Below, in pieces: positions 6,923-23,174 of a DNA stretch of 37,617 nt. Made by a program: the position numbers and the translations under genes. The notes under the pieces are model-generated. The model worked only from the letters and a program-made list of their open reading frames with translations. It did not search any database and had not been told where the DNA came from. The DNA comes from Chloroflexota bacterium (GTDB taxonomy: Bacteria; Chloroflexota; Anaerolineae; Anaerolineales; VGOW01), in NCBI GenBank assembly GCA_016875735.1, contig VGOW01000036.1:1-37617 (forward strand). The letters are read 5' to 3'. How positions within the stretch are numbered: position 1 is the first letter of the stretch; each line of letters begins with the position of its first letter.

Positions 6923-9900
6923 CTACGGCTTGGCAACGCCCTGACTCAAAATGACTCGCTGGCCCAATCGAGCGCCGGTGTTCGGATCGTACCAACCGAC
7001 TCCGATGTTATACACCGTTTTCGATTCCAGATCGGCCAGCGGTAGGGAAGCCGACACGATCACCACCTCATTCTTTTGCCATTGCGAAGTCGGAATGATC
7101 GGGAAGCCGTCGGCTTGAGCGGCGATGAATTCGTCGGCGGGGTGGAAGAGGTGGATGAAGTATTTGTAGTCGGCGGTCATCGCGCTCGATTGTTGCCAGT
7201 ACAGAGTCAGGTTGAGCGTGTCGCCGCTGATCGCGGCGTCGTACCCGGCGAGGGTGATGGCCGGGGGTGAGCCGAAAGAATCGCCGGACTCGAATTGCAT
7301 CGGCGGCAGAGTCGTCGTTCGGTCCGATGGGGTGACGGCGACTTTGCCCACCGCGACGGGCGGCGAGAGCAGTTCGCCCGAAGGATCGAGCAATTGCACG
7401 TTGAGGGTGTATTCGCCAGCGGGCGCGGTGATGGGCAGAGCGAGTGACGGGCGGCCCATCACCAACGCCCCCGCCGCCCATTGCGAAGTTGGAATGACGG
7501 CCAACGGGTGATCGGCGACGGCGCTCACTTCGCCGTTGGGACTCACGGCGCTCCAGCGCGCGATGAAATTTTGCGAGAGCGCGGCGAGCGACGTCCATTG
7601 CGCCGTGAGGGTGAACTGATCTCCGGCGCGAGCCGAGCCGGGAAGGGACACGTCGTGCAAGGCGAGCGCGTCGGTGAAGCGGTGGAGAGGTTCGGTGCCC
7701 GGCGGCGGAGTCCATTGGCCGAGACGCACGGGCACGGTGACGGCTCCCGCCGCGGCGGCGGTGGCCGCGTCGTACAACGTGAGGGTGAGCGGATAATCGC
7801 CCGGCGGGAGTCCGAGAGGGAGATCGAAATGATAAATGTCGGGAACGATTTCGCCGACGCGCCACGCGCTGGCGGGATAAACGCCGCCAGTGGGTTGAAT
7901 ATCGAGCGCGGCGAGTTCGAAGCCCGTGCCGTCGCGCAAGCGAAGGGCGAGCACGTAGTTTGCCGGGACGGGCGCGGTGGCTTGCCAATGGAGGGCGATG
8001 GCAACGGAGGCCGAGTCGGTTTGAGAGGCGGCGGCGCTGAGGAGGGCGATGGAGGGGGTGAGGTGGTTAGGTGGTTGGGTGGTTGGGTGGTTGGGTGGTT
8101 GGAGGATGCGGATGGGGCGGAGGTAGAGAGGGCCGCGCGGTTGATGATTGAAGGTGAGCGCCGGAGCGGGGAGATCGTTTTGAGTGAGGGTGAGGCGGAG
8201 GAGATAGACGCCGGTGGCGATGTCGTCGGGAATGCGGAATGAGACTCCGGCGAGGCCGCGCGCGGCGCCGCCCGCGCTGGCGAACGTGCGCGGAAGATCG
8301 AGGAGATGCCCGGCGGGCGAGACGAGATCGACGGTGAAGGTTGCGTTGCCCGCGCCCTGCCATTGCAGAGCGATGCCGAAAAGATCGCCGGGGCGAAGAG
8401 ATTCGGCGGAATAGTTGTAGCCTTGCAGAATATCGCCATTGCTGAAGGGGGCGGCATCGGAGTGGAGATAGCCCTGCTGATCGAAATCCATTGTGGCCGC
8501 GCCGGAGGGTTGAGCGCGAGCGTTGAGGGCTCGAGCGATGATTGAGATAGCAATGAGTGCGGCGGCGACGGCGATTGAGAGGGCAGCGTATTTCAACCGC
8601 AGAGACGCCGAGAGCGCGGAGATGCTTTTGAGAAGATGATGGGGCTGAGCGACGATGGCAGTGGCGAGGAGGGCAATGAGTGAAACGATGTTTCCGGCGC
8701 GGCGAATGGGTGTGTCGCCGAGTTGAAGTTCGACGGTGTGATCGCCGCGAGGGAGATCGAAGGCGATCCAGCCGAGTCCGTCGGCGGGGCGGATGTCGAG
8801 GGGTTGGCCGTCGGCGCGGGCCTGCCAGCCGGGCCAATACAGAAGGGGCGCCGCCACCGAGGCCGAGCCGGAATGGACAGTGATGCGCCACGTTTGCGAG
8901 TGGGCGCGTTTGTCGAGTCGCTCGCCCTCGGCTTCGCCGTTCAACGCTTTGAGTGTGGCCGCGCCGAAGATGTATTCCTCCGATGAGTACGGCCGGGGCT
9001 GAGTCCATTTCGGCAAATACTCGTATCGGATTGTGGCGCCGATGTTGCCGGTGAAGTATTCGTAGGTTTGCAGTCGCTCGGCGGTGATGTCGGAGTCGGC
9101 GAGGGGGATGAAGTCGGGGCGGAGAGGGAGGAGGGTGGGCAAAATGCAGAGGGCAGAGATTGTGATGGCAAGTGGGGCGATGAGCGTGGGGCGTGGGGCG
9201 TGATTGCTGATTACTGATCGCTGACCGCTGATCGCTGATTGCTGATTGCTAAGAGCGAGGCCGATGAGGGCGCTGGCGAAGAGGCTCTGCGCGGAGAGGA
9301 ACCGCCACGGGAATTGGACGAAGGGGAGGAGAGGGAGGTTTGCCCACAACGGTTCGCTGAAGCGGGTGATCATGAAGGTTGAAATGATGAGGCCGGCGAT
9401 GGCGAAGGATGAAGGATGAACCCCCTGACGAGGGCAGGTGATGAAGGATGGATCTTTTCTGCGGAGGGCGGCGAGGAGTTGAAGGCTAACGGCCAACAGC
9501 CCTATGGCGGCGAGGAGGGCTTGGGCGAGTCCCATGGCGAACGGGGTGGCGGCGTCACTGCCCACATCGAAGTTGAAAAGGAGAGAGGGCTGAACGAGAT
9601 CCCATCCACGAAAGTGGTTGGAGTAATGGAAGTAGCCGGTGGTTTGCGCGCCGAGTTGGGCGAAGCCGGTTTCGCGCAGAGCGGGGAGCCAAAAGAAGGA
9701 GGAGAGGGCGAGGCCGAGGGCGATGGACAATGAGCAATGAGCAATGAACAATGAACAATGAACAATGGCGCGGAGCGAGTTGTGATTGATTGCTGAACGC
9801 TGAACGCTGATAGCCAAAATGTAGAGGCCGAGAAAGGGGGAGAAGATGAGGGCGGAGACGTTGTGAGTGAGGATGAGCGCGGCGTAAGCGAAAGTGAGCG

Positions 9901-21040: not shown

Positions 21041-21847
21041 CTACGGTTTCGGCGCGTTCTCACCCTCGCGGATCACGGTGAGCATTTCAGAATGGATGAG
21101 GCCGTTCGAGGCGACGAGGCCGATGTTCGGAACCGGGACGGGAACATCGTCGAAATTGGTGACGCGGCCGCCCGCTTCGCGAACCATGAGCGTCCCGGCG
21201 GCCACGTCCCACGGACTGAGCCAACTCTCCCAGTAGCCGTCGAGTCTGCCCGCCGCCACGTAAGCCAGATCGAGCGCGGCCGAGCCGAGCCGGCGCACGG
21301 CGCGGGCGCGCAGGGCGAAGTGATTGAAGCGGGCAATGTTGTTGTCGGGGTTGGTGCGGATGTTGTAAGGAAAGCCGGTGACGAGCAGAGCGCGGCTGAG
21401 GGGCCGCGTGGCCGAGACTCGCAGTGGCTTACCATTCAGGAAGGCGCCCTCGTCTTTGGCGGCGGTGAACATTTCATCGCGGGTGGGGTCGAAGATGACG
21501 CCGATGAGTGGATCGCCGCGGTGGAGCAGAGCCAGCACCACGCTGTAAATCGGAAGGTGGTGAGCGAAGTTGGTCGTGCCGTCGAGAGGATCGACAACCC
21601 ATTCGTACTCTGCGCCGCTGTTGGCCCGCGAGCCTTCTTCGGCGCGCAGGGCATGATCGGGAAACGCCTCGCGCAGGGCCGCAACGATGAAGGCTTCGGA
21701 GCGGCGGTCGTATTCGGTGACCAGATCGATTTCGTTGAGTTTGAAGTCGGCGGCGCGATCGCTTCCGGCCTCTTGCAGTATCGCGCCTGCGCCGCGAGCA
21801 ATGGCGGCGGCAGTGGAAAGAGCGTGAGCAAGTTCGATGGAAGGCAT
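21041..21847 (-). CDS. Inositol monophosphatase family protein
   Basis: A 268-residue metal-dependent phosphatase of the IMPase/SuhB family. The metal-binding motifs are visible: LVTEYDRRSE (about 42-51), AEEGS (about 69-73), the signature DPLDGTTNF at 86-94 and SPWDVAAGTLMVREAGG near 207-223. Substrate (inositol, histidinol or sugar phosphate) cannot be assigned. I chose ATG 21847 because a -10 box TATAAT lies exactly 6 bases upstream, which implies a leaderless message, and because longer readings would run into the opposite gene. Confidence 0.9.
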   Translation of the reverse strand: MPSIELAHALSTAAAIARGAGAILQEAGSDRAADFKLNEIDLVTEYDRRSEAFIVAALREAFPDHALRAEEGSRANSGAEYEWVVDPLDGTTNFAHHLPIYSVVLALLHRGDPLIGVIFDPTRDEMFTAAKDEGAFLNGKPLRVSATRPLSRALLVTGFPYNIRTNPDNNIARFNHFALRARAVRRLGSAALDLAYVAAGRLDGYWESWLSPWDVAAGTLMVREAGGRVTNFDDVPVPVPNIGLVASNGLIHSEMLTVIREGENAPKP

Positions 21848-21853
21848 GGGGGA

Positions 21854-21859
21854 ATTATA
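21854..21859 (-). promoter_or_regulatory. -10 box for a leaderless phosphatase transcript
   Basis: TATAAT on the minus strand, 6 bases before the ATG at 21847. The predicted +1 falls on or next to the A of ATG. Confidence 0.6.
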
Positions 21860-21868
21860 AACTGCCTG

Positions 21869-21877
21869 TGCTATACT
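21869..21877 (+). promoter_or_regulatory. Extended -10 promoter of the selenoprotein gene (leaderless)
   Basis: TGCTATACT, i.e. TG-n-TATACT, ending 7 bases before ATG 21885. The predicted start of transcription is at the ATG, and no SD is present. Confidence 0.65.
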
Positions 21878-21884
21878 TTGCCCC

Positions 21885-22130
21885 ATGCATACCATTGAAC
21901 TCACTTACTGCGCTGAATGACACTACACCGCGCGCGCCGCCAGTTTGGTGGGCGAACTGCTGACGAAATACGAATTCGAAATCGAGTCACTGCGGGTGAT
22001 TCCCTCGAAGGGAGGCCGGTTCGAGATCGTCTTCGATGGGGAACTGATCTATTCCAAACTGACCACGGGCCGCCATGCCGAACCGGGCGAAGTGGCCAAG
22101 TTGGTGGGAGAGAGAATCAAGAAAGCGTAG
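21885..22130 (+). CDS. Rdx/SelW-family selenoprotein with in-frame TGA (CxxU)
   Basis: An 81-residue thioredoxin-like redox protein of the Rdx (SelW/SelT/SelH) family. From ATG 21885 the reading is MHTIELTYCAE, then TGA at 21918-21920, then HYTARAASLVGELLTKYEF and on to KKA at 22128. The first strand, Tyr-Cys-x-x-[TGA], KYEFEIESLRVIP, GGRFEIVFDGELIYSK and TTGRHAEP match the family along its whole length. TGA lies exactly where the second redox Cys or the Sec of CxxC/CxxU is expected, and the next base is C. Ordinary gene finding would start downstream (for example 21945) and lose the active site. A hairpin fitting a bacterial SECIS follows the TGA. Sec use is inference until selA/B/C/D are found in the genome. 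Confidence 0.85.
21935..21954 (+). promoter_or_regulatory. Candidate bacterial SECIS hairpin
   Basis: CCGCC (21937-21941) pairs with GGTGG (21947-21951, one G-U), extended by two pairs with one bulged G. The loop is AGTTT with G at its second position. The loop lies 21 bases after the TGA, within the usual range. Confidence 0.6.
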
Positions 22131-22131
22131 C

Positions 22132-22193
22132 GATCAGCATTCAGCGGTTAGCCACAGGCTGACGGCTGATCGCTGACCGCTGACCGCTGACCA
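22132..22193. repeat. Inverted heptamer array directly before trpS
   Basis: Three units in one sense (GATCAGC, ATTCAGC, GGTTAGC), then five in the opposite sense (GCTGACG, GCTGATC, three GCTGACC), which can fold as a hairpin. The last unit ends 1 base before the trpS ATG, in place of an SD. Confidence 0.85.
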
Positions 22194-23174
22194 ATGAAAA
22201 AAGGTCGAGTCTTTTCCGGCGCGCGGCCTACGGGCCGCCAGCATTTGGGCAACTATCTGGGCGCGATCAAAAACTACGTGGCCCTGCAAGACGATTACGA
22301 TTGCGTGTATTGCATCGTGGATTTGCACGCCCTCACCACGATGGACGAGTTCGAGGATTTGCGGCAGAACACTGCCGAGATGGCTCTCGATTGGCTGGCC
22401 GCCGGAATCCGCCCCGCCGAGACGATCATGTTCGTGCAGAGTCATGTGCCGCAGGTGACTGAACTGCACACCATCCTCTCGATGTTCACCCCGCTGGGCA
22501 AACTTACCGACCTGCCCACGTTCAAAGAGAAAGTGGCCCAATCGCCGCACAACGTCAACTACGGCCTCGTCGGCTACCCCGTGCTCATGGCCGCCGACAT
22601 CGTCCTCTACAAAACCGATGTCGTGCCGGTGGGCGTGGATCAGGCTTCGCACATCGAGTTCACCCGCGAGATCGTGCGCACGTTCAACTTCCGCACCAAA
22701 CGGCAAGCGCTCATCGAGCCGCAGATGAAGAACACCGAGTACCCCAAAGTGCTCGGCACCGACGGCGCGCAGAAGATGGGCAAGAGCCTCAACAATCACA
22801 TCGAGTTGGCCGCCACCCCCGCCGAGACTCAGGCCAAAGTGATGACGATGGTGACCGATCCCCAGCGCCAGCGCCGCACCGACCCCGGCCGCCCCGAAGT
22901 GTGCAACGTCTTCAGCCTGCACAAAACTTTTTCGCCGAACGACGTGGCAATGATTGACTCGCAGTGCCGTTCGGCGGGCATCGGCTGCGTGGATTGCAAA
23001 AAGCTGCTGGCGAAAAACATCAACGCCCATCTCGAGCCGTTCCGCGCCAAACGCGCCGAGATCGCCAGCGACCATCAACAGGTGTGGAATGTTCTGCGCG
23101 ACGGGGCGAAGCGGGCCACCGCCATCGCCGAGCGCACGCTGGCCGAAGTGAAAGACGCAGTGGGATTGCCGTGA
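22194..23174 (+). CDS. trpS: Tryptophanyl-tRNA synthetase
   Basis: A 326-residue class I synthetase that charges tRNA-Trp. The HIGH-like motif is GARPTGRQHLGNYLGAIKNY (about 8-27) and the KMSKS-like motif is KMGKSLNNH near 193-201; GVDQASHIEFTREI and a C-terminal GIGCVDCKKLLAKNI also fit. The length is standard. It has no SD; the ATG is preceded by a 7-mer array. It lies downstream of the selenoprotein and upstream of dtd on the same strand, so the two tRNA-quality genes trpS and dtd may be co-transcribed. Catalytic motifs are complete. Confidence 0.96.
   Translation: MKKGRVFSGARPTGRQHLGNYLGAIKNYVALQDDYDCVYCIVDLHALTTMDEFEDLRQNTAEMALDWLAAGIRPAETIMFVQSHVPQVTELHTILSMFTPLGKLTDLPTFKEKVAQSPHNVNYGLVGYPVLMAADIVLYKTDVVPVGVDQASHIEFTREIVRTFNFRTKRQALIEPQMKNTEYPKVLGTDGAQKMGKSLNNHIELAATPAETQAKVMTMVTDPQRQRRTDPGRPEVCNVFSLHKTFSPNDVAMIDSQCRSAGIGCVDCKKLLAKNINAHLEPFRAKRAEIASDHQQVWNVLRDGAKRATAIAERTLAEVKDAVGLP

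Follow-up and report, generated by a model that had tools for sequence, protein, structure and literature searches.

The question raised by this locus is how a single in-frame TGA is read in an otherwise open frame located in the window, i.e., the whole stretch of 37,617 nucleotides that was analysed here. A sequence-only reading had proposed that the frame encodes a protein of the Rdx/SelW type with selenocysteine (Sec) at the TGA. This proposal is supported by the Sec machinery of the genome, by the TGA/Cys column of the homologues and by a SECIS hairpin, and we assign a probability of about 0.97 to the reading that the gene encodes an Rdx-family SelW-like selenoprotein in which the UGA of codon 12 is decoded as Sec via the SECIS element. 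The features are collected in Table 1.

Table 1. Features of the selW locus (positions in the window)
Feature	Positions	Strand	Details	Basis
-10-like hexamer	21872..21877	+	TATACT, 7 nt before ATG	same spacing in genus members
SelW-like (Rdx family) selenoprotein gene	21885..22130	+	81 residues, TAG stop 22128-22130	Pfam Rdx, TIGR02174, dN/dS
CxxU redox motif	21909..21920	+	TGC GCT GAA TGA = C-A-E-U (C9-A-E-U12)	frame, homologue alignment
In-frame UGA, predicted Sec codon	21918..21920	+	codon 12	TGA column in homologues, Sec machinery in genome
Bacterial SECIS	21933..21954	+	outer stem 21933-21935/21952-21954, bulged G 21936, inner stem 21937-21941/21947-21951, loop AGUUU 21942-21946	folding, covariation, bSECIS rules
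Codons 19 (Ala) to 22 (Val); residues 19 and 22 covary	21939..21950	+		codons pair in SECIS stem

The gene and its reading frame

The frame of 81 codons from ATG 21885 with its lone in-frame TGA, followed by a C, was present as described before. With the TGA translated as U it reads MHTIELTYCAEUHYTARAASLVGELLTKYEFEIESLRVIPSKGGRFEIVFDGELIYSKLTTGRHAEPGEVAKLVGERIKKA. The assignment to the Rdx family was borne out for this read-through product, which matches Pfam Rdx (PF10262) with 66.9 bits and an E-value of 1.9e-18 over residues 3-74 (cut-off 22.6) and TIGR02174 (CXXU_selWTH) with 56.8 bits (cut-off 34.2); for the equivalog SelTWH_Campy (NF041051) a score of 71.3 bits was obtained, which is under the cut-off of 88. 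The motif C9-A-E-U12 aligns with the CxxC of Cys homologues and the TGA is at motif position 4, the second redox position, to which it had been assigned. It had also been expected that ordinary gene calling starts at a GTG or ATG past the TGA and loses the active site. The active site is indeed lost, but the open frame behind the TGA begins at TTG 21945, and conventional calling from there would give a protein of 61 amino acids.

The left neighbour of the gene is inositol monophosphatase, encoded on the minus strand (ATG 21847), and the right neighbour is a class I tRNA synthetase of the Trp/Tyr type. Short tandem GCTGACC/GCTGATC repeats are found in the stretch that separates selW from the tRNA synthetase gene (22158-22193) and at around 9220-9255, and a unit resembling them is also located upstream of selW in the relative L021. 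A weak Rfam match to mir-9209 on the intergenic repeats (22158-22193 area) was judged to be spurious.

Homologues across the order and the phylum

The gene was detected in 176 of 301 genomes of the order, and among the matches listed almost all of these homologues contain exactly one in-frame TGA. In a phylum sample of 400 genomes 181 showed a match; the closer ones have the TGA form, the more distant ones the Cys form. At the DNA level 166 homologues were read, of which 163 have TGA in the column, two TGC and one TGT, and the column is Cys in the 35 Cys-form homologues examined; the comparison of relatives suggested with the original proposal therefore returned Sec (TGA) or Cys in this column. 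The homologues with TGA span many genera and families. The motif in relatives is mostly C-A-[VA]-U-H-Y, and the TGA is followed by C in 127 of the 163 cases, by A in 24 and by G in 12. In the genus g47 (L193, L194, L195; G075, G121, G142) the match extends over a TAG near the C-terminus, which is probably merely an earlier stop.

The SECIS hairpin

The hairpin that had been proposed behind the TGA exists with the inner stem and the outer pairs given in Table 1, satisfies the bSECIS model and covaries. Its distance, stated as 21 bases after the TGA, holds for the loop (21 nt between), but not for the conserved G 21943, which is the second loop position and the 23rd base after the TGA. The bSECIS rules demand a loop of 3-9 nt with a G in the first two positions, a stem of 4-16 bp, a distance of 16-37 nt from the UGA and an MFE of at most -7.5 kcal/mol (PMC13188914). 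The window hairpin agrees with all four constraints, having the loop AGUUU, a spacing of 21 nt and an MFE of -13.1 (positions 15-38). An Rfam scan of 21800-22200 yielded no SECIS family.

Because dinucleotide shuffles of the single sequence did not single out the window hairpin (z about 0), it was tested by synonymous-codon nulls. For the window sequence, 11 of 1000 synonymous versions preserving the protein were equally stable, and it was only against this null and among the relatives that the hairpin reached significance. The class with the 21-nt spacing was defined by GT at loop positions 25-26, i.e., by bases outside the stem, and comprises 105 distinct sequences. All five inner pairs are formed in 87 of them, compared with 19 (maximum 32) upon synonymous recoding, and the mean MFE of these 105 loop-defined sequences is -10.2 versus -6.6 in the recoded ones. 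When the stem partner was slid by 1-3 bases, only 0-5 sequences kept the pairs. Among the Cys homologues, which need no SECIS, the stem was present in 0 of 35. These sequence comparisons indicate that the hairpin is under selection.

Covariation of residues 19 and 22

In the stem, codons 19 and 22 are paired through their first two bases, and for this reason residues 19 and 22 of the protein covary. The pairs found from residue 19 to residue 22 are Ile with Met or Ile, Val with Thr (or with Ala by G-U pairing), Ala with Ala or Val, and Thr with Val. With a mutual information of 1.2 bits this is the strongest coupling in the 16-residue segment, the next one reaching 0.95. Both base pairs of codons 19/22 are Watson-Crick in 74 of the 105 sequences, compared with 25 (maximum 40) if codon 22 is dealt anew. 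The tests keep some relatedness among the sequences; after thinning to below 70% identity (n=49) both pairs are found in 36 sequences with 13 expected (maximum 23), and below 60% identity (n=26) in 18 with 7 expected (maximum 15). In the 35 Cys homologues, which are more distant and thus an imperfect control, the 19/22 coupling is at chance.

A gene that is decoded with Sec could show the same covariation if residues 19 and 22 packed against each other in a helix (i, i+3), as residues three apart can make contact there, and the RNA pairing would then not be its cause. Yet the residue pairs observed are those that base pairing predicts, the coupling is absent in the Cys homologues, and two synonymous third positions, both fourfold degenerate, covary as well, being Watson-Crick in 60 of 65 cases (expected 33, maximum 46 in 20,000 shuffles). 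Helix packing is therefore regarded as improbable.

Two SECIS registers

A second class of 55 distinct sequences was selected by GTG at codon 19, i.e., by one codon of the loop region, and was checked on the stem. In this register the stem is formed by positions 15-19/25-29, with the loop CGUGA or similar located 17 nt after the UGA, and all five pairs are present in 55 of 55 sequences versus 2.2 (maximum 8) upon synonymous recoding. The second register is nearly confined to family f11, which accounts for 46 of the 49 sequences in the subset assigned to families (e.g., L025, L027 and L036). Some sequences of other families can form both hairpins equally, and these would give a path between the registers. 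The window gene uses the 21-nt register.

Sec machinery and predicted decoding of the UGA

The genome of the window, which is 97.8% complete, encodes a tRNA-Sec whose anticodon is UCA (76 bits), SelB (350 bits, counting both stretches), SelA (552 bits) and SelD (383 bits), so that the search for selA, selB, selC and selD advised by the sequence-only reading found all four in the same genome; this genome is a draft of 150 contigs with 3% contamination, and the Sec genes are on contigs other than that of the window. SelD itself (L018, G000:C2:124118-125059) has its own in-frame TGA, corresponding to Sec in SCAGUAAK, and ends at an ordinary TGA stop. SelA is present in five of five genomes of the genus and in 168 of the 176 gene-bearing genomes of the order (Fisher p 3e-13). 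The eight gene-bearing genomes with no SelA match are G006, G099, G108, G135, G150, G210, G234 and G279, and the TGA form of the gene is found in G099, G108, G135, G210, G234 and G279. They may represent incomplete assemblies, as several of the eight are incomplete, or a loss of Sec.

The SelA/SelB/SelD mechanism is well established. Applied to this gene, the mRNA would carry the UGA at codon 12 and, 21 nt further on and within the coding sequence, the SECIS hairpin. SelB would bind the hairpin loop and deliver Sec-tRNA-Sec, made by SelA using the selenophosphate of SelD, to the ribosome, and the UGA would then specify Sec instead of ending translation. The product would have 81 residues and the redox pair C9-x-x-U12. 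It is most likely a thiol/selenol oxidoreductase, and the redox chemistry that we infer for it is the reduction of a disulfide, a peroxide or a glutathione-mixed disulfide. Judged from the sequence data, Sec insertion in this organism is near certain.

An open frame would also result if UGA were a sense codon throughout the genome, specifying Trp, Gly or Cys, or if a plain stop were read through. This is very improbable, as the homologues have Cys in the column, TGA terminates other genes here, such as SelD, and in L021 and L022, two relatives from the genus, TGA occurs internally and again as final stop of the same gene; moreover, the genome has a dedicated UCA tRNA-Sec together with SelA and SelB, and selection acts on the hairpin. 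A sequencing error that conceals TGC or TGT, or a dead gene, is still harder to credit; the assembly is a draft in 150 contigs, but TGA occupies the same column in 163 homologues of many genera and families and dN is well below dS both 5' and 3' of the TGA in the genus relatives (dN 0.17-0.28 and dS 1.3-2.7 for the window gene against three of them). Error, pseudogene and genome-wide reassignment were accordingly rejected on the relatives, namely on the TGA column, on dN/dS and on L021/L022.

A possible leaderless start

In four of four gene-bearing members of the genus the hexamer TATACT or TATAAT is followed after exactly 7 nt by the ATG or GTG start, without a Shine-Dalgarno sequence, and GGAGG-type sites are found in many other families. 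The start of selW on the plus strand and that of inositol monophosphatase on the minus strand are divergent and 37 bp apart, and the latter also shows TATAAT, 6 nt and the ATG without a Shine-Dalgarno sequence. A search for sigma-70 promoters gave no -35/-10 pair. The selW mRNA is probably leaderless in this genus, and the arrangement of both starts suggests the same for the mRNA of inositol monophosphatase. We put at even odds the joint claim that one ungapped family has two SECIS registers (21 or 17 nt), that in the register of the window the RNA stem and not protein contacts sets the 19/22 pairs, and that members of this genus recode the UGA, 33 nt from the 5' end, on a message that has no leader.

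Significance and comparison with known systems

In the open-access papers searched, no report of RNA-imposed residue covariation, of two registers or of a leaderless selenoprotein message was found. Annotation from TTG 21945 would drop the active site, and the protein is thus probably missing or truncated where selenoproteins are not modelled. The family constitutes a clean test case in which an RNA hairpin within a coding region visibly limits the choice of amino acids, and covariation driven by RNA in this way would mislead contact prediction. With the two registers, recognition by SelB can be compared between messages that otherwise match.

SelW-like CxxU selenoproteins have been known in bacteria since 2005 and are established and abundant, and the window gene belongs to them. 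In the Sargasso Sea set no other family was as abundant (PMC1088965), and few Cys homologues exist in Sec-decoding bacteria (PMC1794560). The window gene shares with these proteins the CxxU motif, the Rdx family, a SECIS directly downstream and the scarcity of Cys forms in Sec-decoding organisms; it differs in its lineage and its C-A-[VA]-U-H-Y signature, in the probably leaderless mRNA of its genus and in a SECIS that occurs in one of two registers (PMC1088965; PMC1794560). The solved structures of the PF10262/TIGR02174 family (e.g., 3dex, 2fa8 and 2p0g) match the protein in sequence over residues 2-78; these bacterial Rdx relatives are distant (best E 7.4e-11), and in the window protein the second residue of the redox pair is encoded as U. 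Compared with the bacterial SECIS consensus of the bSECISearch model, the window hairpin fits the N1-G-U-N-N2 loop (A-G-U-U-U), the distance with 21 nt, the stem of at least 4 pairs and the MFE below -7.5 kcal/mol (PMC13188914). It lacks nothing that the consensus requires, and the wider family adds the register of 17 nt.
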